Positions 48,944 to 61,207 of a stretch of DNA of 64,000 nucleotides are shown piece by piece (the stretch's first letter is position 1; each line of letters begins with the position of its first letter). Position numbers and translations under genes: made by a program. Origin of the DNA: Polyangiaceae bacterium (lineage in GTDB: Bacteria > Myxococcota_A > Polyangia > Polyangiales > Polyangiaceae); assembly GCA_025936045.1 (NCBI GenBank), contig JAICUB010000004.1:124001-188000 (forward strand), written 5' to 3'. The notes beneath the pieces are model-generated. The model was not told the origin of the DNA. It did not search any database and was given only the letters and a program-made list of their open reading frames with translations.

Positions 48944-50320
48944 ATGGATAGTACTATCTTGGGTACCCGCGGCGATTTCCCCACGCCGACGGCAAGGGTT
49001 AGCGGCTTGTCCGATCCGGATGGTTTCGAAACGAGGCGACGACTGCGCTTCGAGCTTCTCCGCGAAGTAAATCGCGGCGGGATGGGGCTGATCGAGTCGG
49101 CGCTCGACCCGCTCCTCGGCCGTCGGGTCGCGATCAAGACGCTGCGGGAAGAGCTGCTGGAGGACGAGCGCGTCGCCATCAAATTCGAGGAAGAGGCTCA
49201 GATCACGGGCCAGCTCGAGCATCCGAACATCGTTCCCATCTACGAAATCGGCGAAGACGGGCACGAGCCGTTCATCGTCATGAAACTGATCCGTGGCCGC
49301 AGCCTCGGCGACCTGTTGCGCGTGCCCGTCCTCGCCCCGCAGGATCCAATCGGGCTTCAACGTTTCGTTGCGATTGTTTTGAAGCTGTGTGACGCGCTCG
49401 AGTACGCTCACAGCCGCGGCGTCTACCACTGCGATCTGAAGCCCGACAACGTGATGGTCGGGGACTTCGGCCAAGTCTATTTGATGGATTGGGGCGTCGC
49501 GCTTCTGGAATCGAGGAAGCACCGCCTCGCGCCCGGATCGGCGCCGGGCCGCCGCTTTTCGATCGAGCACCTGATCGCGAGCGATCGGGATTCGCTGATT
49601 CGCGTCACCGGCCCGGACGACGGCGGTGATCCGGTACGCGGCACGCCCGCGTACATGGCGTCCGAACAGCTCTGGGGCCGCACCGAGGAAATCGACGCCC
49701 GCACCGACGTCTTCGGCATCGGCGCTATTCTATGTGAGATCCTCACCGGTCGGCCGCCGAACGAGTGGGACTCCCTGCCGAACATCGCCGCCCGCAAGGA
49801 GCCCATCGAGCTCCCGGACGGCACCGGCGCATGGACGCGGCTCCCGCCCGAGCTCCGGCGCATCACGCGCAAAGCGCTCCACCCGCTCCGCGACCAACGT
49901 CACGCCGACATCGCTTCGCTGCGCGCCGAGCTCGAACAGTTCATGCGCGGCGGCGGCTGGTTCGAGACGCGCTCGTTCGCGCCGGGCGAGGTCATCGTCC
50001 AGGAAGGCGACGCGGGCGACAGCGCCTACATCATCGAAGAAGGCCACTGCCACGTCTTCAAGCACCTCTATGGGCGGCGCGAGCTCGTGCGCACCCTCGG
50101 CCCCGGCGACGTGTTCGGTGAAATATCGGTATTCGCGGGCGGGCCGCGCACTGCCACCATCCAAGCGGCCGACGCCGTCAAAGTGAAGATCATCGGCGGT
50201 GATTCGCTGAATCACGAGCTCGATCAGAATCCGTGGCTCGGCGCGTTCGTACGTTCGCTCGCGACGCTCTTTCGCGAAACCGACGCACGGCTGTCCGATC
50301 CGCCCGCGCCCCCTCGCTGA
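48944..50320 (+). CDS. Atypical Ser/Thr kinase with C-terminal cyclic-nucleotide-binding domain
   Basis: The 458-residue soluble protein has a kinase domain at about 30-325 with GGMGLIE loop and AIKTL lysine. The catalytic loop is YHCDLKPDN (Cys replaces Arg of HRD) and the metal motif is DWG instead of DFG. Catalytic Asp and Asn are kept, so activity is plausible without RD-type activation. Residues about 335-450 form a cNMP-binding domain (FAPGEVIVQEGDAGDSAYIIEEGHC, then GDVFGEISVFAGGPRTATIQA), with the phosphate-binding cassette FGEISVFAGGPRTA. Regulation by cAMP/cGMP is inferred. Confidence 0.9.
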   Translation: MDSTILGTRGDFPTPTARVSGLSDPDGFETRRRLRFELLREVNRGGMGLIESALDPLLGRRVAIKTLREELLEDERVAIKFEEEAQITGQLEHPNIVPIYEIGEDGHEPFIVMKLIRGRSLGDLLRVPVLAPQDPIGLQRFVAIVLKLCDALEYAHSRGVYHCDLKPDNVMVGDFGQVYLMDWGVALLESRKHRLAPGSAPGRRFSIEHLIASDRDSLIRVTGPDDGGDPVRGTPAYMASEQLWGRTEEIDARTDVFGIGAILCEILTGRPPNEWDSLPNIAARKEPIELPDGTGAWTRLPPELRRITRKALHPLRDQRHADIASLRAELEQFMRGGGWFETRSFAPGEVIVQEGDAGDSAYIIEEGHCHVFKHLYGRRELVRTLGPGDVFGEISVFAGGPRTATIQAADAVKVKIIGGDSLNHELDQNPWLGAFVRSLATLFRETDARLSDPPAPPR

Positions 50321-50438
50321 CCGGCCTTCCGAATGGCGGACAGCGCGCGAGCCCGTGCGCATCTCCCGCGCGAACGCGCATGAAAGAACCATTGCGGGCG
50401 CGGGAGCGCGGAACTAGCGTCCGAGCGTCACAAAAAGC

Positions 50439-52754
50439 ATGCGCCCGCCGAAGGTTGCCATCGTAGGCGGGGGGTGCGCCGCGCTGAGCGCTGCGTTCGA
50501 GCTCACGCGCCCCGATCGCGAGGACGGCGCGAAGTACGACGTCACCGTGTACCAGCTCGGGTGGCGACTCGGCGGCAAGGGCGCCTCGGGCCGCAACCGC
50601 GACGAGTGGAACCGCACCGAGGAGCACGGGCTCCACGTCTGGATGGGCTTTTACGAGAACGCGTTTCGGCTCGTGCGCGACGCCTACGCCGAGCTCGAGC
50701 TTCACTACACCGATCGACCGGAAGCGCGGCAGTCGCGTTACGGGGATTGGCAGGAAGCGTTCTTCGCCGACCCCTGGATCGGACTCGCCGACGAGTCGCG
50801 CGGCTTCTGGCGGGCGTGGACCGCGAACTTCCCGGCGAACGAAGGCCTCCCGGGTGACCCGCTGGCGCCCGGCACGAACCCATTTTCGCTATCCGGTTAC
50901 GTCGCGCGCAGCATCGATCTTTTGCGGGCGCTCCTGCGCAGCACGTTCACGGCGACACCGTCGGAGAGGCGCGACGCGACGGAGCGGGAGCTCGAATTCT
51001 CCGAGGTTTCGCCGCGCGCCGTGGTCGACAAGCTCACGAGCCTCTTGCGCACGGGCTTGCTCACCGGCGCGGGCGCCCTCTACGAGGCCATGGCGGTCCT
51101 GAACGTCGCGCTGTCGGGAGCGGCGTCGCTCCCGGAGAACGACTTCCGCGTCCTCAAGTTCGCGGAAGCCATCGCCGAAAACGTGAAGCGCGAAACCGCC
51201 AACGTGCTCCGGCTCGACGACGAGATCCGCCCGAAGCTCGAGCTCATCGAGCTCGTGATGACGATCATCGTCGGCATCGTCCGCGACGAGCTCTTGACGG
51301 ACCCGCGCGGGCTCGACGCGATCAACGACGAGGATTGCCGCGCCTGGCTCCGGCGCCACGGCGCTTCCGAGCGCGCGCTCGGTTCGCCGTTCGTACGCGG
51401 GCTCTACAACATGGCCTTCGTCGACTCGCGCGTCTTCGACGGCCATGGCGAGAACGTCCCGGCGAGCGCGGCGGACGAGCCGGGGCTGGCCGCGGGCCAG
51501 GCGCTGCGCGGCGCGTTGCGCATGTTCTTCACCTACCGCGGCGCCCTGTTCTGGAAGATGCGCGCGGGCATGGGGGACGCGGTTTTTTCGCCGCTCTACG
51601 AGGTACTGAAGCTCCGCGGCGTGCGCTTCGAGTTCTTCCATCGGCTCACCGACGTGGAGCTCGGTGAGGAGCAGGGCGGCTCGCGCTTCGTGAAGGGCCT
51701 TCATTTCGACGTGCAAGCGCGCGTGCGCCGGGGCCGGTCATTGGCTCACGGCGGCGAGCTCGCCGAACGGGTCGCAGGCGACGAGTACTATCCGCTCGAC
51801 GTCGACGGCTGCTGGCCCGCGAAACCGCAGAGCTCGCAGCTCGTCGGCGTCAACGAGCGCGAGGACGACGAGTACCTCGAGCTCCAGCTGCGCGATCCGA
51901 AGTTTCGCGCCGAGCCCGAGCGAGACCGACGCACGCTCGCGCTCGGGCGTGATTTCGATTTCGTCGTGCTGGGCCTCAGCGTCGGCGCCGTGCCGCACGC
52001 GTGCAAGACGCTCGTCGGGAGCGACCCGCGCTGGCGCGCCATGGTCGAGAACGTGAAGACGGTGCCGACGCAAGCGCTGCAGCTCTGGCTCAACGAGGGG
52101 CTCGAAACCCTGACGGACACGCCGACGCCCATCACCGTGGCCGGCCTGCGCGGCACGTTCGACACCTGGTCGGACATGACCCACGTGATTGCCGAAGAAG
52201 ACGCCGAGCCGCGGCCCGCGGGGCTCGCCTATCTCTGCGGGGTGCTCGGCGAGGAGCCGAGCACGTTGCCGGCAGGGTTCAAGCCGGGAGAGGAGCCGCG
52301 CCCGGATCAAATCGCGCTCTGGCGCAGCGCGGCCTGCGAGCGCGTGGTCCACTACCTCGATCACGTACTTCCGGCGCTGTGGCCCGCGGCCCGCGACCAG
52401 GACACGCGAGGCTTCCGCTGGGCGCTGCTGGCGACGCCGGGGCAGTTGAACCCGGCGCACGGCAAGACAGGACGCGTATCCCACCGGGACAAGCTCGCGA
52501 TTTTGGAACGGCAGTACCTCGCCGTGAACGTGAAGGTTGCGGACCGCTACGTCCTCGCGCGACCGGGGACGCTCGAATATCGAATTTCCCCGCTCGACGC
52601 GAGCTACGACAACCTGACGGTCGCGGGCGATTGGACCGACTGCGGCTTCAACGAGGGCTGCGTCGAAGCGGCGGTCATGTCCGGCATGCTCGCGTCGCAC
52701 GCCCTGAGCTCGCTCCCCGCGCTCGAAGACATCATCGGCTACGACCACCCCTAG
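50439..52754 (+). CDS. FAD-dependent oxidoreductase (phytoene-desaturase/amine-oxidase-like)
   Basis: The 771-residue flavoprotein has an N-terminal dinucleotide motif VAIVGGGCAALSAAFEL, then LGWRLGGKGASGRN. The C-terminal FAD segment LTVAGDWTDCGFNEGCVEAAVMSGMLA matches carotenoid desaturases, amine oxidases and HpnE-like enzymes. It is larger than typical desaturases (about 500 residues), with a helical insert around residues 130-330. It is the first gene of a five-gene operon with a polyprenyl synthase, so it may oxidise or reduce an isoprenoid chain. The reaction is unknown. Confidence 0.87.
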   Translation: MRPPKVAIVGGGCAALSAAFELTRPDREDGAKYDVTVYQLGWRLGGKGASGRNRDEWNRTEEHGLHVWMGFYENAFRLVRDAYAELELHYTDRPEARQSRYGDWQEAFFADPWIGLADESRGFWRAWTANFPANEGLPGDPLAPGTNPFSLSGYVARSIDLLRALLRSTFTATPSERRDATERELEFSEVSPRAVVDKLTSLLRTGLLTGAGALYEAMAVLNVALSGAASLPENDFRVLKFAEAIAENVKRETANVLRLDDEIRPKLELIELVMTIIVGIVRDELLTDPRGLDAINDEDCRAWLRRHGASERALGSPFVRGLYNMAFVDSRVFDGHGENVPASAADEPGLAAGQALRGALRMFFTYRGALFWKMRAGMGDAVFSPLYEVLKLRGVRFEFFHRLTDVELGEEQGGSRFVKGLHFDVQARVRRGRSLAHGGELAERVAGDEYYPLDVDGCWPAKPQSSQLVGVNEREDDEYLELQLRDPKFRAEPERDRRTLALGRDFDFVVLGLSVGAVPHACKTLVGSDPRWRAMVENVKTVPTQALQLWLNEGLETLTDTPTPITVAGLRGTFDTWSDMTHVIAEEDAEPRPAGLAYLCGVLGEEPSTLPAGFKPGEEPRPDQIALWRSAACERVVHYLDHVLPALWPAARDQDTRGFRWALLATPGQLNPAHGKTGRVSHRDKLAILERQYLAVNVKVADRYVLARPGTLEYRISPLDASYDNLTVAGDWTDCGFNEGCVEAAVMSGMLASHALSSLPALEDIIGYDHP

Positions 52755-52768
52755 GTCCCGAGGAGCCC

Positions 52769-53548
52769 ATGCAGGATCCGGAACGCCCGAAACGACCCGC
52801 GCTGCGCCGCAGCGGGCCGCTGCGCGACGCGACCACCGTCTACCGTCGCTCGGATCCGCAGGCGCGCCGTCCGCCGCCGCGCACGGGCGGCCCGCTCACC
52901 TCGAGCGAGGACGTCGTGATTCAGGCCGTAAAGCTCGGCTACAAGATCGCGGACGAGCAGATCGCGAAAGGGCAAGAGTTCGCGCGCAAGCTACGCGGCG
53001 CCTCGTCGCGCAACGACGGGGGTGACTTCGGCGACCTGGTCGAGCAAGGCGTGCGGCTGGCAAAGCAAGTCGGCATTCTGCTGGTGGAGCTCGCCGAAAC
53101 GACGACGCAGCCGCAAGCCGTGCTGCGGAACCTCACCCGCCAAGAGAGCGCGCGCCGCGGCGACGCGGGTGAGCCCGAACGCCGCGAAGCGCCGGCGCGC
53201 GAGGCGGAGCCGATGCGCGCACGCAAGGCGGACGACCACGCCCACACGGTGCCCGTCGAGGTGCTTTCGTCGCGGCCGACGCGCGTATCGCTCGAGCTCG
53301 ACGCGCCGCTGCGGGAATGTCCCGAGGTGTATCCGCTCTACCTCAAGGGCAACCCGGCGCACGCGCTTCATGGCGTGAGCTTCAAGGCGGACGACGGGCA
53401 CGGCTTCGTGCTCTCGGTCGTCGTGAAGGGCGATGATCCGCCGGGCAGCTATCGCGGTTATGCGGTCGATCGCGTGACGCAGCGGCCGCTCGGCACCATT
53501 TTGGTCACCGTGAGCGACGCGACGCCCGCGCCGGCGGGCCGAGCATGA
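52769..53548 (+). CDS. Hypothetical protein, helical N-half and beta C-half
   Basis: The 259-residue protein starts at an ATG with AGGAG 5 bp before it. Residues about 45-115 form amphipathic helices (VVIQAVKLGYKIADEQIAKGQEFARKL; LVEQGVRLAKQVGILLVELAETT). A charged linker and then a beta-rich segment of about 100 residues follow (VPVEVLSSRPTRVSLELDAP ... YRGYAVDRVTQRPLGTILVTV). No family is recognised. It may be a structural or membrane-associated partner of the enzymes. Its stop overlaps the polyprenyl synthase start. Confidence 0.65.
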   Translation: MQDPERPKRPALRRSGPLRDATTVYRRSDPQARRPPPRTGGPLTSSEDVVIQAVKLGYKIADEQIAKGQEFARKLRGASSRNDGGDFGDLVEQGVRLAKQVGILLVELAETTTQPQAVLRNLTRQESARRGDAGEPERREAPAREAEPMRARKADDHAHTVPVEVLSSRPTRVSLELDAPLRECPEVYPLYLKGNPAHALHGVSFKADDGHGFVLSVVVKGDDPPGSYRGYAVDRVTQRPLGTILVTVSDATPAPAGRA

Positions 53549-54615
53549 GCGCCGCCGCGTTCGCGAGCGCGCCGAGCCCGGAGCGGCTGCCCGACACGCA
53601 CGCGATTCCGGAGCTGCTCGCGCGTTACGGCAAGCTCACGCGCCGCGCGATGCTCGCCTACTTGCCGGACGGCGAGCCCGAGCCGTACCTCTACGGCCTA
53701 CTCGGCGACTACCCGAAGCGCGGCGGTAAGATGATGCGAGCGAGCCTCTGCCTCGCGAGCGCGCGCGTCTTCGGAGCCGAGCTCGAGGACGCCGTGAGCT
53801 CGGCCGTGGCCATCGAGCTCCTGCACAATTCGTTTTTGATCCACGACGACATCCAGGACGAGAGCGACGAACGCCGCGGCCGCCCCACGCTGCACAAGGT
53901 GCACGGCATCGGCCTCGCGCTGAACGCCGGTGAATCGCTGAGTCTGCTCAGCGTGCGCCCGTTGCGTGACAACGCCGCGCGCCTCGGGACGCGCCTCTCT
54001 CTGCGCATCTTCGAGGAAACGGAGCGTATGGCCTGGGAATCGGCCGAAGGCCAGGCGCTCGAGCTCGGCTGGCGCCACGAAAACCGCATGGACATCGACG
54101 AGGAGGCTTACCTCCTCATGGTCCTCAAAAAGACCTGCTGGCTCGCGACGATTCACCCGTGCCGCATCGGCGCGCTGATCGGCGGCCGCGACACGCTCGA
54201 GCTCGACGCCTTCATCCGCTTCGGGTTTTTCCTCGGCGCCGCCTTCCAGATCCAGGACGACGTCTTGAACCTCACCGCGGGGGAAGCTTACGGCAAGGAG
54301 CTGAACGGCGACTTGCTCGAGGGCAAGCGCACGCTGATGACCTGCCACGTCCACGCCCACGGCGGAGACGCCGGGCGCGCGCGGCTCGCGCGGCTCTTCG
54401 CGCAACCGCGCTCGGAGCGGAGCGCGAGCGAAATCCAGTGGCTCCGTGGAGCGATGGACGAGCTCGGCTCGATCGAGCACGCGCGTGCGGTCGCGCGCGG
54501 GCTCGCGGGCGCGGCGCTCCGAGAATTCGAAATCGTGTTCGGTGATCGGCCGGACTCCGCGGACAAGGAGTTCATCCACGGTCTCGTGCGCTGGGTCCTC
54601 GAGCGGGAAGCGTGA
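53545..54615 (+). CDS. Polyprenyl diphosphate synthase
   Basis: The 356-residue trans-prenyltransferase has the first Asp-rich motif DDIQDESDERRG at about residue 100 and the second, DDVLN, at about 237 (fifth position Asn). Between them lies the usual GQALEL-like segment (QALELGWRHE). It condenses IPP with an allylic diphosphate, and chain length (GGPP-like or longer) cannot be fixed by eye. It overlaps the upstream gene by 4 bp. No terpene cyclase is in the operon. Confidence 0.92.
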   Translation: MSAAAFASAPSPERLPDTHAIPELLARYGKLTRRAMLAYLPDGEPEPYLYGLLGDYPKRGGKMMRASLCLASARVFGAELEDAVSSAVAIELLHNSFLIHDDIQDESDERRGRPTLHKVHGIGLALNAGESLSLLSVRPLRDNAARLGTRLSLRIFEETERMAWESAEGQALELGWRHENRMDIDEEAYLLMVLKKTCWLATIHPCRIGALIGGRDTLELDAFIRFGFFLGAAFQIQDDVLNLTAGEAYGKELNGDLLEGKRTLMTCHVHAHGGDAGRARLARLFAQPRSERSASEIQWLRGAMDELGSIEHARAVARGLAGAALREFEIVFGDRPDSADKEFIHGLVRWVLEREA

Positions 54616-54619
54616 AGCG

Positions 54620-55933
54620 ATGAAGGAGCGTTTGCTCATCTACGGCGCGACCGGGTACACCGGCCGCTTGCTCGCGCGGGAAGCGGGGCGAAGGAAGCTC
54701 CCCGTCGTGCTCGGCGCTCGCCGGCGCGAGCGGCTCGAAAGGCTGGCGGACGAGCTCGACCTGCCGTACCGCGTGCTCGGGCTCGAGACGCCGGCCGAGC
54801 GCAAGCGCCGTCTGGACGAGGACGCGAAGCGGCCAATCCCGGGCCCGGACGAGCTGCGAAAGTTGGCGGCTGCACCCAAACCGGCAGCTCGCCCGTCGCC
54901 GAACGCGGCCCTTTACAGCGCGCTCGCGGACGTGGGCGTCGTGTTGAACGCCGCGGGACCGTTCGCGGAGACCTCGCTGCCGCTCGCGCGGGCATGCGTG
55001 AAAACGAACACGCACTACGTGGACATCTCGGGAGAATACGACGTTTTCCGTGAGCTCGACGGAGAGCTCGATCAAGAAGCGAAGAAGCACGACACGCTGA
55101 TCGTGCCGGGCGCCGGCCTCACGGTCCTCGCCTCGGATTGTTTGATCCGAGACGCCGTCACGTGCGCGCGCGAGCGCGGCATGGGCGAGCCGCACAGCGT
55201 GCGGGTGGCGCTCTCGCGCGTGCCGGTAGTCTCGCGCGGCAGCGTGCGGACGATGCTCGACTGCGTGCGCGACGGAGTGCGCATCCTGCGCAACGGCAAG
55301 GACGAGTTTTACCGGGTGGGGACGCTCGTACGCTCCTTCACGTTCGGCGAAGAGCGTGACTTCGAGCGGGATCAGCCGCGCATCTGCACGGCGATGTCGC
55401 TCGCCGACACGCTGACTGCGGGCGCAACGGCGGCGCGAGCCTTTCGTGGCCACTGGGAGCCCGCGCAAGCCGTACCCAACGTCGAAGCGTACCTCGAGGC
55501 GAGCAGCCTCGAGCGCACGGTCTACGAGCTCGGCGGCGAGTTCTCGCTCGCGCTCCGCGGCGGACCGCTGAAGCTCGTCGTCGATCGCGTGCTCGCGATG
55601 TGGCCCGAGGGTCCGCGCGCCGAAGAGCGCGACCAGACGACCCAGCAGATCGTCGTCGAGGTCGAAGACCGTTACCGGCGCGGAGTGGAGCTTCGCCTCG
55701 CGACGAAGAACAGCTACGACTTCACGGTCGACAAGGCGCTCGAGCTCGCGGAGACGCTCTGCACGACGAAGTCCGAAGAGCGGGGCTTCGTGAGTCCGGC
55801 GTGGGTGCTGCCGAGCGGCATCATCGACGGAAACGACGAGTTCGGCTCGACGGAGGGCTGGGGCGAGTGGCAGCTCAAGTATCGCGGTCTGCCGCGCCGC
55901 CGCGCTCCGAACGCGCCGGGGCCGCCCGCATGA
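54620..55933 (+). CDS. Saccharopine-dehydrogenase-like/trans-acting enoyl reductase family protein
   Basis: The 437-residue protein has an N-terminal Rossmann motif IYGATGYTGRLLAREA, then NAAGPFAETSLPLARAC and THYVDISGEYDV, as in mycobacterial trans-acting enoyl reductases and the saccharopine-dehydrogenase-like group. A short Pro/Lys-rich insert follows the first strand pair (about 60-90). It probably reduces a C=C in a lipid or polyketide chain with NAD(P)H; the reaction is inference. It starts 4 bp after the polyprenyl synthase gene. Confidence 0.85.
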   Translation: MKERLLIYGATGYTGRLLAREAGRRKLPVVLGARRRERLERLADELDLPYRVLGLETPAERKRRLDEDAKRPIPGPDELRKLAAAPKPAARPSPNAALYSALADVGVVLNAAGPFAETSLPLARACVKTNTHYVDISGEYDVFRELDGELDQEAKKHDTLIVPGAGLTVLASDCLIRDAVTCARERGMGEPHSVRVALSRVPVVSRGSVRTMLDCVRDGVRILRNGKDEFYRVGTLVRSFTFGEERDFERDQPRICTAMSLADTLTAGATAARAFRGHWEPAQAVPNVEAYLEASSLERTVYELGGEFSLALRGGPLKLVVDRVLAMWPEGPRAEERDQTTQQIVVEVEDRYRRGVELRLATKNSYDFTVDKALELAETLCTTKSEERGFVSPAWVLPSGIIDGNDEFGSTEGWGEWQLKYRGLPRRRAPNAPGPPA

Positions 55934-57879
55934 CCTCCGGGGCGGGCCGGGGGCCCGACTCGAGGCCCAGTGTGCCGCCGCCGTCACGCCGGCCGAGCGT
56001 GCCGCCGCGTTCGCCGCGTTCGACTCTCGCTCCGAGCTCCGGCAGCGATTTTCAGTCGACGACCCCTTACGCGCTGCCGAAAGTGAGCGTCCTCGGCGGG
56101 ACGTTCCGCAGCGACGACGCGACGCTCGGCGCGCTCTGCCGGACGCTCTTCGGCGAAAAGAGCGAGTGGGCACCCGCCTCGAGCGAGCTCTTCTTCGACC
56201 TCGGGCGCGTCGAAAGCGAAACGCCGTGGTGGTTTCTCTGCTTTCGCATGCTCGTGCGGAGCGCCCGTGGGGAGGTGCGAGCCGCAGTGTCGCACGCGTT
56301 CATCGACATCGATCGCATCCCCGCGCTCACCGTCGGTCGCGAGATTTTCGGCTTCCCGGCGCTCGCCGCCCGCTTCGTGTTCACCCCCTCACTCGAGCAG
56401 GGTGGCGGGTTCGGCACGAGCGGCAGCGTCTCGATCGAGACGGACGTGCTGACGGCGACCTCTCACGTGGTCGCCAAAAGCGTGGTCGCGCGCGTGAGCT
56501 GGAAGCCCGACGCGAGCGGTTCGCCGAGCGCGCGCATCGCCTGGCGCGACCTCGCGAACGAGTGGCTGACGGCGGAGGCCCCCGCGAGCGGGCCGTTTCC
56601 GTTCGTGCAGCTCAAACAGATCCGCGACGCCATCGAGCCGGGCCGCGCCTGCTTTCAGGACCTGGTCCTCGGCGACGTCGCGCTTCACGCGAGCGCCGAG
56701 CACGCCGATCCGGAGGTCGAGCTCACGCTGCACGACTACCGGAGCCTCCCGCTCGCGACGAGCCTCGGACAGCGCCGCGCGGGCGAGACCGGCGACGGCG
56801 CGGCCGACGTGAGCGTGCACCACGGCTACTCCGTCGGACGGCTGAGCCTCACGTTCTCGATCCCCGCCGTCGAGAAGCCGTCACGCGCCTCCGTCAAGCA
56901 GCGCGTGCCCTTCAGCTTTCGCGGCGGTGACCCGCAGTTCGCGCCCGAATACGATTTTCGGAACGTGAGCCTCACGGGCTTCATTTTGCCCGCCGCGCGC
57001 TCGCAATTGAAACGCATCATCGACGCGCAATTGAACGAGCCGTACCCCGATCGCAGCTACTTCTACGAGCCCGTGAGCACGGACGTCATCGTCGAGTACA
57101 TCGATTACGGCTCGATGGTCGCGGCCAATCCGCCGCCGCACCTCGAGATCGACGACAGCGCGGGACAGCACGAGCTCGTCTTTCGCGTGCTCGTCGGGCG
57201 CGTGGATCGCGGCTCGCGCGTCGCGAAGAAGCCGGCCATGTTCTGTCCCTTCGTGTTCGTGGACAGCACTTGGTCACTGATCTCCGGGCGCGAAATCATG
57301 GGTTACCCGAAGGAGCTCGCGACGTTCACCCGCTACGTCGAGGACGGGGAGCTCGCGGCATGCTGCGTGCGCTCGCGCGACCGAACGGGCGCCGTGGCGG
57401 ACGTGCTCACCCTCGACTGCCGTCGCGAACAGACATTTCGGGGCCTCGATTTCGAGCGCGACGCTCAGCCGCGCACCACGAGCGCGACGCACCCCGCCGC
57501 GAAAGAACGGCGCCCCCGCACGCGCGCGCATCCGTGGTGGGGCCTCGACTCACTGCAAGGCTCGGCCGACTTCGGCAACGTCGTCGGCCCCTGGCTGCGC
57601 GGCCTCGACTACGGCTTCGGCGCCGTCTTGCTCAAGCGTTTCGGCGCCGCGAGCGCGCCGCAAACGGCGTGTTACGTCGAAATTCTCGAAGGCGACTACA
57701 TCATCCAAAACGCCGACGTGAACCTCCCGCCCACGCGCGCGCGCCTCGACTTCGGCGCGGCCGACCCCTTCGGCCTCAAAGCGAAATTCGGCCTGAGCGC
57801 CCACGTCCTCGTCCCCGCGGGCAGCTGGTACCGCGCGAGCTGCGATTTTCGCGTCAGAATCCTCGACCCCCTCGCGTGA
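55930..57879 (+). CDS. Tandem acetoacetate decarboxylase-like protein
   Basis: The 649-residue protein has a disordered Pro/Ser N-terminus of about 50 residues and two acetoacetate-decarboxylase-like domains. The first (about 60-280) has VGREIFGFPALAARF; the second (about 310-645) has SGREIMGYPKELATF. In ADC the equivalent of PKKL holds the Schiff-base Lys. Only the second copy keeps a Lys there, so the first is probably non-catalytic. It overlaps the upstream reductase gene by 4 bp and is the last gene of the five-gene operon. Decarboxylation or aldol-type activity on an unknown beta-keto acid is inferred. Confidence 0.85.
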   Translation: MTSGAGRGPDSRPSVPPPSRRPSVPPRSPRSTLAPSSGSDFQSTTPYALPKVSVLGGTFRSDDATLGALCRTLFGEKSEWAPASSELFFDLGRVESETPWWFLCFRMLVRSARGEVRAAVSHAFIDIDRIPALTVGREIFGFPALAARFVFTPSLEQGGGFGTSGSVSIETDVLTATSHVVAKSVVARVSWKPDASGSPSARIAWRDLANEWLTAEAPASGPFPFVQLKQIRDAIEPGRACFQDLVLGDVALHASAEHADPEVELTLHDYRSLPLATSLGQRRAGETGDGAADVSVHHGYSVGRLSLTFSIPAVEKPSRASVKQRVPFSFRGGDPQFAPEYDFRNVSLTGFILPAARSQLKRIIDAQLNEPYPDRSYFYEPVSTDVIVEYIDYGSMVAANPPPHLEIDDSAGQHELVFRVLVGRVDRGSRVAKKPAMFCPFVFVDSTWSLISGREIMGYPKELATFTRYVEDGELAACCVRSRDRTGAVADVLTLDCRREQTFRGLDFERDAQPRTTSATHPAAKERRPRTRAHPWWGLDSLQGSADFGNVVGPWLRGLDYGFGAVLLKRFGAASAPQTACYVEILEGDYIIQNADVNLPPTRARLDFGAADPFGLKAKFGLSAHVLVPAGSWYRASCDFRVRILDPLA

Positions 57880-57943
57880 AGGATTTGGTTTTGCCGCACG
57901 TCGCCGGGCGTCGCGTGCTGCCAGCGCCTGCGCGTCTTCTCCG

Positions 57944-60900
57944 CTAACGCGCGACCAGCCTGGCCTCGGCCGCGCGAAGCTCTTCGTGATCCTCCCCCGC
58001 GTCTCGCGACCTCGACAATAACTCGCGCATCCTGGCGAGCTCCGCGTTCCCGGGACCCGGCAGCGGGTCACCGAGACTCAAGAGCGCGCGAAGCTCGAGC
58101 TCGTGGGCTCCCTGCGCGCGGGCGACCGCTGCCGCACGCAGGATTTCTTCGCGCCAGCGCGGGTCCTTCCCGCCGCTCGCAGCGTGCTGGATTTCGCCGC
58201 GCAGGCGGTGGTGCTCGGAGGCCATGAAGGCTTCTCCCGAGCGCTTTGCTTGGGCGTCCGCCTCGTCGAGCGTCACGAGCGCGCTCGCGGCGTCGCCGGC
58301 CGCGCGCTGACACAACGCGAGCCCCCACAGGAAAAACGGGCGATTGAGCTCGGCGCCGCCCGCCTGCCAGAGGCCGAGCATGTGCGTGAGTACCGGAATC
58401 GACGCCGCGGGCTCCGCGCTGCCCCGCGCGATCGCGCCGTGCATGCTGGCCGCACCGAGCCACACCGGAAAGCCGTGTTCCTCCGCGATCGCGGCGCCGC
58501 GTGCGGCATGCTGCGCAGCTTCGGCGAAACGCCCGCGCGCGTTGTTGTGAAGCGCGGCGAACGCATGCGCGTAGGCGCGATTGAACGGACGCAGCAGCCG
58601 CTCCGCGAGCTCGAGCGCCTCGGCCTGCACCCGCTCGGACCTCTGCACCTCGCCCATCATCCAGGCGACGATGGCCTGGAGCGACAAGCTCGCCACGCCC
58701 GGATCCTGCAACGAGGGGTACGCGAGCGTCTCACCGTCGTGCGCACGATAAAGCGCGATCGCGCGCTCGAGCTCGACGCGGCCGGCGGCGAGCGCGCCTT
58801 GATACACGAGCGTGTAGCCGAGGGCCGTCGCGCTCTCGATCAAATCCGCGGGGCTGCCGCTCTGCTCGGCGACGCGCACGCATTCCTCGGCGAGGTCGCG
58901 CGCCGTAGCGAGCTCGGCGCGCACGATGTAGAAGGTGCAGAGGCCGCGGAGCGCCGGGAACAGCACGGCGTGGTTCGCGTGTTTGCGGCAGAGCTCGAGC
59001 GAGCGGCGATACGCCGCCTCCACCTCGGGCGCCGCGTAACCCTGCGTCGCCGACGTCGCGAGTCCGAGCGCGACGGAGAGATCGATGTCGTGTTCGTCGC
59101 GCAGCGGCGACGGCTCGAGCCGCGCCACGAGCTCGAGCCCGCGCAGGAGGTGCCTGCGCGCCTCCATGTGCGCGGCGTGCGCCGAGGCGACGCGCGCGGC
59201 TTCACGTAGATACGCGATCGCGCGCGGGAAAGCGCCGGCCTCGCGGAAATGGTGTGCGAGCACGGCCGGGTCCTCGGTGCGTCCCTCGCGCACGCGCTCC
59301 TCGAGCACGTCGCCGATACGCTGATGAAGCTCGCGCCGCGTACTGCGAAGCATCATCGCGTAGGCGGCGTCCTGGAGCAGCACGTGCTTGAAGCTGCAGG
59401 CGGCGCGCGCGTCGGCCGGGACGCGCACGATGTCCGCGTCGGCCAGCGTCGTGAGCGCGGACGCGACCTCGGCTTCGGGCACGGCCAAGACGGCCGCCAG
59501 GAGCTCGCGCGTGAACTCACGACCGATGGCGGACGCCACGTGCACCACGTCCTTCACGTCGGCGATGCGATCGAGACGAGCCGCGAGCGAATCCTGCAGC
59601 GCCGAAGGGATCGCGCCGAGCTCCGGGCCGCGCACGCCGCCGCCCTCGGGGGAGAGCGCGCCCGCTTCGAGCATGGCTTTCGTGAGCTCCTCGACGAACA
59701 GCGGGACGCCCTCGCCCTTCGCGAGGATGTGCTCGACGGTCGCCGGGCCGAGCGGCTCGTCACGCGTCAGCTCGCGCACGAGCCGCTCCGAGTCGGCGCG
59801 GTCGAGCCGCGTCAAATCGAGGAGCGTCGTGGGGCATTTCGGCAGGTCGGCGTTTGCGCCGGGGCGGACCGTGATGACGACGAGGATCGGTCGCTCGGCG
59901 ATGCTCGCGACGACCTCGTGCAAAAGCTCGATCGTCGTCGGATCGGCCCAGTGCAGATCCTCGACGAGCACGAGCAGCGGAGCGACGCGCGCCGCCGAGT
60001 AAAACTGCTGCTTGAGCGCGAAGAAGGTGCGCTGCTTCAGTCGCTCCGCGGAATCACTGAACGGGGAGAAGCGGGCGCCGAACGGGATGTCGAGGAGCGA
60101 GGCGAGCACGCGCGTGAGGCCCTCGTCGGAACTCGAGCTCGTGCGCGCGACGAAATCGGCGACCTTGTCGAGCTTCGAGCCCGGCGTGTCGTCGGGCAGG
60201 ATCGCCGAAGCGCGCTCGATCTGCCGGATGACGGGAAAGAGCGCCGAGTCCTGGAAGCGGGGCGCGCACTGATAGCGGAGGATGGAGTGCGGCTCGGCGG
60301 CGACGCGCTGCCGGAGTTCGTGAACCAGCCGCGATTTACCGAGGCCGGCCTCGCCTTGGATCACGACGAGCTCACCTGCGCCGCTCCGAGCCGTTTGCCA
60401 GGCCGAGAGCAGCGCCGCCATTTCCTTCTCACGGCCGACGAGCGGAAGCTCGGGCGAGCGGCGCGGCGCTCGAGCCGCGGCGTCCTGCTCGCGACGCTCG
60501 CGCAAGACGTGCCACAGGGGAACCGGCTTGTCGAAGCCCTTCGGCGTGCTCGCGCCGAGCGAGGCACACTCGAAAGACGCCTCGACGAGGCGCTTGGTGA
60601 CCTCGGATATGACCACCGAGTCGGGCGCGGCACCCGACTGCAGGCGCGCAGCGAGGTTCGTCGTCTGGCCGAAGACGACTTCGTCGAACGACGTGCCCGA
60701 AACGAGCAGCGGATCGATGACGACGACGCCGGTCGCGAGCCCCACGCGCGCATGCAACTTGACCTCGAGGTGCGTGTCGAGCGCGCTCACGGCCGAGACG
60801 AGCTCGAGGCCGGCGCGCACGGCGCGCGCGGCATCGTCCTCGTGCGCGACCGGATAGGAGAAGAGGGCGAGCACCCCGTCGCCCATGTAGCTTACGATGA

Positions 60901-61207
60901 AGCCTTCGTGACGAGCGATGACGTCGCGTGCGCAATCGCGAAACGCATGTAGAACCTCGCGCAAGTCCTCCGGATCGAGCCGAACCGAGAGACTGGTCGA
61001 GTCGACGAGATCGCAGAAGAGGACGGTGGTTTGTCGGCGTTCGGGGTTGCCGAGCGGGCTCCGGCGCTGGCCGCTGCCGGGCCGGCCCGCACTCTGCGAC
61101 TTCGGCTGGCCTGCCGGCTCCGCGTCACTCGCTCCAGACACGACCGCGCCGCACGCGGCGCACACCGGGCCGTCGGGAACCTCGCGGTGACAGCGGACGC
61201 ACTGCAC
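57944..61207 (-). CDS. Class III adenylate cyclase domain-AAA ATPase-TPR regulator
   Basis: The 1087-residue protein has an N-terminal zinc-ribbon-like pair (CVRCHRE, CAAC). A class III cyclase domain lies at about 57-230 (VLFCDLVDSTSLS and MGDGVLALF supply the metal Asp residues). A helper AAA ATPase domain follows with Walker A GEAGLGKSR near residue 286 and a VLVEDLHWADPT Walker B. The C-terminal half has TPR-like helices. This architecture is common in high-GC bacteria and usually regulates transcription or signalling. cAMP production is possible but not certain; the lone cNMP-kinase at 48944 is a plausible effector. Confidence 0.9.
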   Translation of the reverse strand: MQCVRCHREVPDGPVCAACGAVVSGASDAEPAGQPKSQSAGRPGSGQRRSPLGNPERRQTTVLFCDLVDSTSLSVRLDPEDLREVLHAFRDCARDVIARHEGFIVSYMGDGVLALFSYPVAHEDDAARAVRAGLELVSAVSALDTHLEVKLHARVGLATGVVVIDPLLVSGTSFDEVVFGQTTNLAARLQSGAAPDSVVISEVTKRLVEASFECASLGASTPKGFDKPVPLWHVLRERREQDAAARAPRRSPELPLVGREKEMAALLSAWQTARSGAGELVVIQGEAGLGKSRLVHELRQRVAAEPHSILRYQCAPRFQDSALFPVIRQIERASAILPDDTPGSKLDKVADFVARTSSSSDEGLTRVLASLLDIPFGARFSPFSDSAERLKQRTFFALKQQFYSAARVAPLLVLVEDLHWADPTTIELLHEVVASIAERPILVVITVRPGANADLPKCPTTLLDLTRLDRADSERLVRELTRDEPLGPATVEHILAKGEGVPLFVEELTKAMLEAGALSPEGGGVRGPELGAIPSALQDSLAARLDRIADVKDVVHVASAIGREFTRELLAAVLAVPEAEVASALTTLADADIVRVPADARAACSFKHVLLQDAAYAMMLRSTRRELHQRIGDVLEERVREGRTEDPAVLAHHFREAGAFPRAIAYLREAARVASAHAAHMEARRHLLRGLELVARLEPSPLRDEHDIDLSVALGLATSATQGYAAPEVEAAYRRSLELCRKHANHAVLFPALRGLCTFYIVRAELATARDLAEECVRVAEQSGSPADLIESATALGYTLVYQGALAAGRVELERAIALYRAHDGETLAYPSLQDPGVASLSLQAIVAWMMGEVQRSERVQAEALELAERLLRPFNRAYAHAFAALHNNARGRFAEAAQHAARGAAIAEEHGFPVWLGAASMHGAIARGSAEPAASIPVLTHMLGLWQAGGAELNRPFFLWGLALCQRAAGDAASALVTLDEADAQAKRSGEAFMASEHHRLRGEIQHAASGGKDPRWREEILRAAAVARAQGAHELELRALLSLGDPLPGPGNAELARMRELLSRSRDAGEDHEELRAAEARLVAR

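Follow-up and report, generated by a model that had tools for sequence, protein, structure and literature searches.

Five adjacent genes, here called A to E, lie on one strand in a 64,000-nucleotide stretch of a Polyangiaceae bacterium genome (contig JAICUB010000004.1; the window) and encode, in this order, a large FAD protein, a small helical/beta protein, a prenyl diphosphate synthase, an NAD(P)-dependent oxidoreductase and a double acetoacetate-decarboxylase (ADC)-family protein. By sequence comparison, these genes are a conserved unit that is inherited together and not a chance grouping, because A, B and C follow one another without interruption on the same strand in 51 of 78 loci (window counted) and 12 further loci have the full order. 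The operon may represent a pathway, dedicated and regulated, in which a prenyl chain is built and remodelled with neither a canonical terpene cyclase nor a tail-to-tail condensation step, a reading we regard as evenly balanced between right and wrong. A wider proposal falls just short of that balance: the operon would belong to a class of isoprenoid pathways that is so far undescribed and reaches at least eight named phyla. In this class a phytoene-desaturase-fold flavoprotein and a Schiff-base ADC protein, with the lysine in one domain and not in the other, would take the place of terpene cyclases and convert a C20 prenyl diphosphate to a novel lipid or signal, controlled by a cyclic-nucleotide/AAA module. 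The parts belong to known families, and their combination appears to be undescribed. A first-pass annotation of the same stretch knew of no pathway with exactly this set, and no description of the gene set was found in 5.39 million open-access papers, a scope outside which subscription papers and preprints fall.

Conservation and gene order of the operon

The genes span 50439–57879 with gaps of +14, -4, +4 and -4 bp, an arrangement already reported by the first-pass annotation and recovered both from open reading frames and by a codon-bias gene caller, which places the start of E at 56083 instead. The draft genome that contains them measures 6.37 Mb and is 86.6% complete; besides the operon itself, a DNA search of this genome returned six short partial matches.

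To survey relatives, the genome_contigs collection (84,980 species) was scanned with an alignment of nine A proteins; at least 509 relatives were confirmed and the best 80 were kept. Genes were called in these 80 loci and in 44 further ones and clustered all against all, after which the families were scored by profile. The 80 loci and the window make 81, of which 78 are scorable after the removal of L096, L118 and L148, where A was not called. Genes within 8 kb of A were counted as its neighbourhood. L046 and L102 are the same locus, and L144 is retained in locus counts, gene-order counts and distance matrices although its layout matches that of L109. The members of alignments A2–A5 and A7 were picked by hand, by length.

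Gene C lies near A in 63 of the 78 scorable loci, window included. These C-bearing loci have an ADC gene in 46 cases and a B-like gene in 61 by profile, a count that leans on B-like genes added by hand for lying between A and C, or in 44 by strict BLAST cluster. D-type genes are found in 41 by a profile that cross-hits the SDR/epimerase family f6, which occurs near A in other loci, and in 32 by cluster. Many stored stretches are cut, so flanks are often short; if only the 33 C-bearing loci whose two flanks both reach 8 kb or more are taken, the counts are 25 for ADC, 32 for B-like and 23 for D-type genes. The search for the same order across genomes, suggested by the first-pass annotation, yields 13 loci with the exact A-B-C-D-E succession: the window, ten alphaproteobacterial loci (eight of them from Sphingomonadales) and two betaproteobacterial ones.

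Apart from the window, the C-bearing loci number 62 and come mainly from Pseudomonadota (30), Myxococcota (15) and Actinomycetota (8), followed by Gemmatimonadota and Acidobacteriota (2 each), Binatota, Planctomycetota and Nitrospirota (1 each) and two unassigned loci. Many are metagenome bins, and phyla with a single locus are weakly supported. Carriers of the set include alpha-, beta- and gammaproteobacteria and Mycolicibacterium. With A as the query, 64 of 377 Myxococcota genomes give a match, the window's own included (E <= 1e-20). With E as the query, only 2 of 377 do, again counting its own (E <= 1e-10), and a plasmid search with E returned no match. The near-empty E search had suggested a unique locus, a reading ruled out by the A query and by a later ADC profile; matches to E are scarce because E diverges fast and occurs in split forms.

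A FastTree phylogeny of 111 A proteins, built without L099, L102, L107, L116, L144 and A rows shorter than 560 aa, places all 65 prenyl-synthase-linked A rows in one starred set of 70. For three of the five exceptions (L093, L120 and L138) the stored stretch stops at A or close to it; for L140 and L143, in which C was not seen, the stretch end is no explanation. Several long-branch joins were flagged by the tree program, all outside this set. The window A is starred together with L124 and L136, and the three have a common gene order and a reversed order of ADC domains. Over 52 loci, the distance matrices of A, C and B correlate with one another at 0.79–0.84, a level reached by none of 999 permutations and one to which shared species history contributes.

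Six mycobacterial loci (L145, L152, L154, L159, L162 and L163) keep A, C, a B-like gene and a cyclase gene and have no ADC gene nearby. The same loci carry a family of 464–489 aa, two members of which were scanned and gave no Pfam match.

The encoded proteins

The descriptions given by the first-pass annotation hold for A (phytoene-desaturase-like), B (helical/beta), C (polyprenyl synthase) and E (double ADC-like). D had been called trans-enoyl-reductase-like; its NADP-binding domain is recovered, and nothing beyond that domain.

C exceeds the polyprenyl_synt cut-off of 27 with 174 bits. Its closest solved relative is the Thermus geranylgeranyl diphosphate (GGPP) synthetase 1wmw (2.5e-56), to which both Asp motifs, DDIQD and DDVLN, align. 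The DDxLN form of the second Asp-rich motif is unusual, and its Asn is invariant in 44 C proteins (alignment A4). Judged by its sequence, C is an intact geranylgeranyl-type diphosphate synthase, for which a C20 product is likely; the NCBIfam equivalog cut-offs for GGPP and farnesyl diphosphate synthases are not reached. The possibility that C is a polyprenyl transferase of Family 2 encapsulin cargo (NF041169) was rejected at 166 bits against a cut-off of 450. One actinobacterial C (L139:12096-13742) has about 240 extra residues ahead of the prenyl synthase domain.

The AlphaFold2 model of A, made with 51 relatives, has a pLDDT of 84 and a pTM of 0.90, and its best Foldseek match in the PDB is rice phytoene desaturase 5mog (E 3e-15, TM 0.75 by target length, 12% identity), followed by protoporphyrinogen oxidases, amine oxidases and oleate hydratases. 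As modelled, A has the plant-type phytoene-desaturase fold, with an extra long, mostly helical region at about residues 150–340. Among NCBIfam models, the window A is nearest to HpnE and CrtQ: the hydroxysqualene dehydroxylase HpnE model TIGR03467 gives 55.4 against a cut-off of 283, and the phytoene desaturase model TIGR02731 gives 16.8 bits against 569. TIGR03467 is matched by 50 of 51 relatives of A at E 1e-5, which is a match by E-value and not by cut-off. A was filed neither as HpnE nor as CrtQ because its scores are far below the cut-offs. Assignment to the oleate hydratases (MCRA, PF06100) was also rejected, at 16.9 against a cut-off of 23.

In Catenovulum and Azospirillum, relatives of A that lack C are paired with ADC genes. 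Next to the Azospirillum relative lies a gene annotated as an outer membrane transport protein, and a patatin-like gene lies near the one in Rufibacter. The pairing, which is once a fusion, and these neighbours suggest that A and ADC proteins act together on hydrophobic chains generally. The fusion joins an ADC domain and the FAD protein in one polypeptide of 1039 aa (L149:9065-12184); the A proteins of L161 (1061 aa) and L140 (1129 aa) are of similar length. Beside other C-lacking relatives of A stands a lycopene-cyclase-type membrane protein (L066:11097-12008, L076:10092-11075 and L147:12241-13215), which, in a scan of the L147 and L066 copies, is above the Pfam Lycopene_cyc cut-off in L147 and below it in L066.

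E matches the ADC family PF06314 with a score of 59.7 against a cut-off of 29.8; the NCBIfam acetoacetate decarboxylase model, at 22.8 against 150, falls far short. Most E proteins longer than 600 aa hold two domains by a profile of ADC domains, and in such proteins one domain carries the lysine of a GREVYGWPK-type motif and the other does not (GIPT, GRST, GTEM and others). The lysine-bearing domain comes first in most loci and second in the window, L124 and L136. The two domains are separate neighbouring genes in several sphingomonads, and the pairing of a lysine-kept with a lysine-lost domain occurs in both fused and split forms. Among 19 lysine-bearing domains selected for alignment A7 this lysine never varies. 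It lines up with the PKK lysine of solved ADCs in a short aligned segment (E of 0.0025–0.0064), and we take it to be the Schiff-base lysine. In the ADC enzyme this lysine and the second one that follows it are presumably K115-K116. Domain 2 of the window E has the first of the pair, with the second replaced by Glu (GYPKE), and domain 1 has neither; given the Glu, decarboxylation is not assured. The first-pass annotation had E process a beta-keto acid, which is not established: one domain is without the lysine, and the ADC-family protein of the conjugated linoleic acid (CLA) pathway is, in the consulted excerpt of PMC13365329, a double-bond isomerase. Many relatives of E longer than 900 aa (such as L089:14277-18098) have a C-terminal extension that the window copy does not share and that matches, within the neighbourhood set, only other E proteins.

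B belongs to a coherent, fast-evolving family with a mean column identity of 22% over 39 aligned members. A basic, R/P-rich N-terminal motif is followed by long helices (46–130), a linker and a C-terminal beta domain (163–248) in the AlphaFold2 model, which has a pLDDT of 77.5 and a pTM of 0.44. Foldseek finds no PDB match with E <= 0.001, a PDB profile search gives weak matches (the best, at 7.6e-4, to a glycosidase stretch), and a Pfam scan of the 39 members gives five unrelated matches, each in a single member. We infer that B possibly acts as a scaffold. D is recognisable only in its NADP-binding domain, with profile matches to 3ic5 and 4ina.

Flanking genes and possible regulation

The operon is flanked by two genes that the first-pass annotation did not list, K, which ends 118 bp upstream of A, and Y, on the opposite strand (Table 1). 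Both are probable regulators.

Table 1. Genes and domains at the operon locus, in window coordinates
Feature	Coordinates	Strand	Description	Supporting matches
K	48944..50320	+	Ser/Thr protein kinase with C-terminal cyclic-nucleotide-binding domain	Pfam Pkinase 9.8e-32, cNMP_binding 4.5e-21
A	50439..52754	+	771-aa FAD protein, phytoene-desaturase fold (modelled)	Pfam NAD_binding_8 1e-9
B	52769..53548	+	259 aa; helices plus C-terminal beta domain (modelled)	no Pfam family at 0.1
C	53545..54615	+	all-trans prenyl diphosphate synthase, geranylgeranyl type (by sequence)	Pfam polyprenyl_synt 4e-51
D	54620..55933	+	NAD(P)-dependent oxidoreductase, saccharopine-dehydrogenase-type NADP domain	Pfam Sacchrp_dh_NADP 5e-9
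E	55930..57879	+	double ADC-family protein	Pfam ADC 3.9e-16, two stretches
E domain 1	56212..56856	+	lysine lost (GFPA)	ADC-domain profile
E domain 2	56920..57858	+	presumed Schiff-base lysine kept (GYPK)	ADC-domain profile
Y	57944..61207	-	class III nucleotide cyclase + AAA_16; convergent with operon	Guanylate_cyc 3.3e-19, AAA_16 5.8e-20

L046/L102, L088 and L110 each carry a full-length homologue of K, with kinase and cNMP domains, no more than 8 kb from A. The cluster of Y comprises 44 genes near A in 42 of 65 C-bearing loci, with AAA_16 in 41 of them, Guanylate_cyc in 33 and Pkinase in 8. A cyclase domain is found near A in 39 of the 63 C-bearing loci by our own, looser profile, and 35 of these 39 were confirmed in a Pfam recheck that covered one candidate per locus and its first 600 residues. 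Two kinase genes marked by our profile (L050/L116 and L052) gave no Guanylate_cyc match in a genome search. Of the 24 C-bearing loci that the profile left unmarked, 17 have a flank shorter than 8 kb. In five sphingomonad loci (L111, L113, L121, L122 and L134), where no cyclase gene lies within 8 kb, a convergent gene of 784–795 aa stands instead; that of L111 contains a bacterial transcriptional activator domain.

No RNA family was found within 49900–58200. Promoter scans yielded no site, and terminator-like sites number 13, against a shuffle mean of 8.3 (standard deviation 3.4).

Candidate pathway, alternatives and known systems

The families, the conserved motifs and the linkage come from the sequences themselves; the reactions and the product proposed here are predicted from them. 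C would make GGPP (C20), and A would desaturate, isomerise or hydrate the prenyl chain. D, or the SDR f6 in relatives, would interconvert alcohol and carbonyl or reduce an enone. The lysine-bearing ADC domain might form a Schiff base with the carbonyl and shift a double bond, or else perform decarboxylation or aldol chemistry, with the lysine-less domain as a substrate-binding or structural partner. ADC-family Schiff-base chemistry on a prenyl chain would, to our knowledge, be a new use of the ADC fold. B might hold the enzymes together at a membrane or lipid body, and a cyclic-nucleotide circuit, in which Y makes the nucleotide and K reads it, could control the operon. The product may be a diterpenoid or prenyl lipid not described before, either linear or cyclised in an unusual way.

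Terpene genes elsewhere in the host genomes bear on this proposal. We searched 26 genomes that carry A and C, a subset of the carriers (10 G handles and 16 named loci). A squalene/phytoene synthase (SQS_PSY) match is present in 21 of them, that of L086 being only partial, and was not found in five: the window's own genome (86.6% complete), G347 (96%), G258 (95%), G124 (90%) and the genome of L115. All five are without SQHop_cyclase_C (PF13243), and four, the window's included, are without Terpene_syn_C_2 (PF19086); each has three to six polyprenyl_synt matches. A is not expected to need phytoene or squalene in these five hosts, unless the synthase was missed through incompleteness or is unrecognised. 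The first-pass annotation's statement that there is no terpene cyclase holds for the five genes, by Pfam, and for two cyclase families across the window genome, which has no PF19086 or PF13243 match and hence no canonical terpenoid cluster by that measure; other cyclase families were not searched for.

Several observations weigh against a dedicated prenyl pathway of this composition. The genes are not scattered in relatives, which the first-pass annotation had said would speak against its proposal, and the order recurs; yet 17 of the 63 C-bearing loci, including 8 whose two flanks each reach at least 8 kb, show no ADC gene within 8 kb of A, and none is seen in any of the eight actinobacterial loci, so E may not be essential. 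L104, L117, L137 and L158 show a single lysine-bearing ADC without a partner, some of them near contig ends. A is under every NCBIfam cut-off, and the substrate of D is not predictable from its NADP domain. As to regulation, a Pfam-confirmed cyclase is not seen within 8 kb in 28 of the 63 C-bearing loci, and among the nine loci L044–L052 only L045 and L046 have one; the background rate of Guanylate_cyc (161 matches in about 171 Mb from 20 Myxococcota genomes, or about 0.017 per 18-kb neighbourhood) covers one phylum. An absence from the window genome is weak evidence alone, given its incompleteness, and in the 21 genomes with an SQS_PSY match A could act on the product of such a synthase.

In a first alternative, A would be a desaturase or dehydroxylase of the carotenoid/squalene type whose C30–C40 substrate comes from a synthase encoded elsewhere; C would do no more than boost the supply of GGPP, and the cluster would make a variant carotenoid. 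Phytoene desaturase at the top of the Foldseek list, the HpnE and zeta-carotene desaturase models as the best, if sub-cut-off, NCBIfam scores of the window copy, the lycopene-cyclase-type proteins beside C-lacking relatives in L066, L076 and L147, and the SQS_PSY matches in 21 of 26 genomes are all consistent with it. It is weakened by the five genomes with A and C and no SQS_PSY, three of them 90–96% complete, and no recurrent phytoene synthase emerged from the neighbour clustering, in which most clusters were not annotated. We know of no carotenoid cluster that contains ADC proteins, which also counts against this alternative, and we consider it unlikely.

An alternative that we rate no higher takes the substrate of the pathway to be a fatty acid or another imported lipid, by analogy with CLA/oleate hydratase metabolism, and has C supply a separate lipid such as an anchor or quinone tail. 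The C-lacking relatives of A point this way through their ADC partners in Catenovulum and Azospirillum, their transport-protein and patatin-like neighbours and the A-ADC fusion of L149, as do the oleate hydratases among the Foldseek matches. In the window clade, however, C adjoins 65 of 70 A rows and directly follows A-B in 51 of 78 loci, and the score of A with the oleate-hydratase Pfam family stays below the cut-off. Least probable, and by a clear step, is the quinone-like product that the first-pass annotation named as one possibility: C would provide the prenyl tail of such a molecule, or of an aromatic one, and A, D and E would modify the head group. These three could act on any hydrophobic ketone, and methyltransferase-family genes lie next to or near A in L101 (5338-6108), L114 and L115 (Pfam-identified in L101 only). 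Against it, the recurrent neighbours, most clusters of which were not annotated and among which UbiA was not searched for, showed no evident UbiA-type aromatic prenyltransferase.

The preferred reading, a pathway that builds and remodels a prenyl chain, has consequences for how such systems are found. Conservation of the biosynthetic set across several phyla suggests that the product matters to its makers. Because none of the known terpene cyclases or carotenoid synthases is among its five genes, the operon would probably escape searches built on those enzymes. Cultured carriers, among them Novosphingobium sediminis and Rhodopila globiformis, make the set directly testable.

The closest chemical counterpart found among known systems is the CLA pathway of Lactiplantibacillus plantarum, which comprises the hydratase CLA-HY, the dehydrogenase CLA-DH, CLA-DC and the enone reductase CLA-ER, as excerpts of two reports describe it (PMC13365329, PMC9241672); CLA-DC, of the ADC family, moves a C=C bond to a new position (PMC13365329, in part). 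As far as these excerpts go, the pathway resembles the operon in combining an FAD enzyme acting on a C=C bond, an NAD(P) dehydrogenase and an ADC-family protein, with part of the set in one operon, and it also has an enone reductase; the operon offers comparable roles and a prenyl synthase. The CLA pathway differs, in the same excerpts, by its fatty-acid substrate and by an FAD enzyme that is an oleate hydratase, and they make no mention of a prenyl synthase, a B protein or a double ADC (PMC13365329, PMC9241672). CrtP/PDS and HpnE resemble A in fold (5mog, TM 0.75), and the best scores of A, though sub-cut-off, are to the HpnE and CrtQ models; A exceeds the 5mog chain by some 300 residues, and its operon contains no phytoene or squalene synthase. 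Compared with solved ADCs (PF06314), domain 2 of E keeps the PKK-aligned lysine with Glu as the next residue and is joined to a partner domain without the lysine. Both Asp motifs of C align with Thermus 1wmw, which also has DDVLN; C differs in sitting in a dedicated operon.

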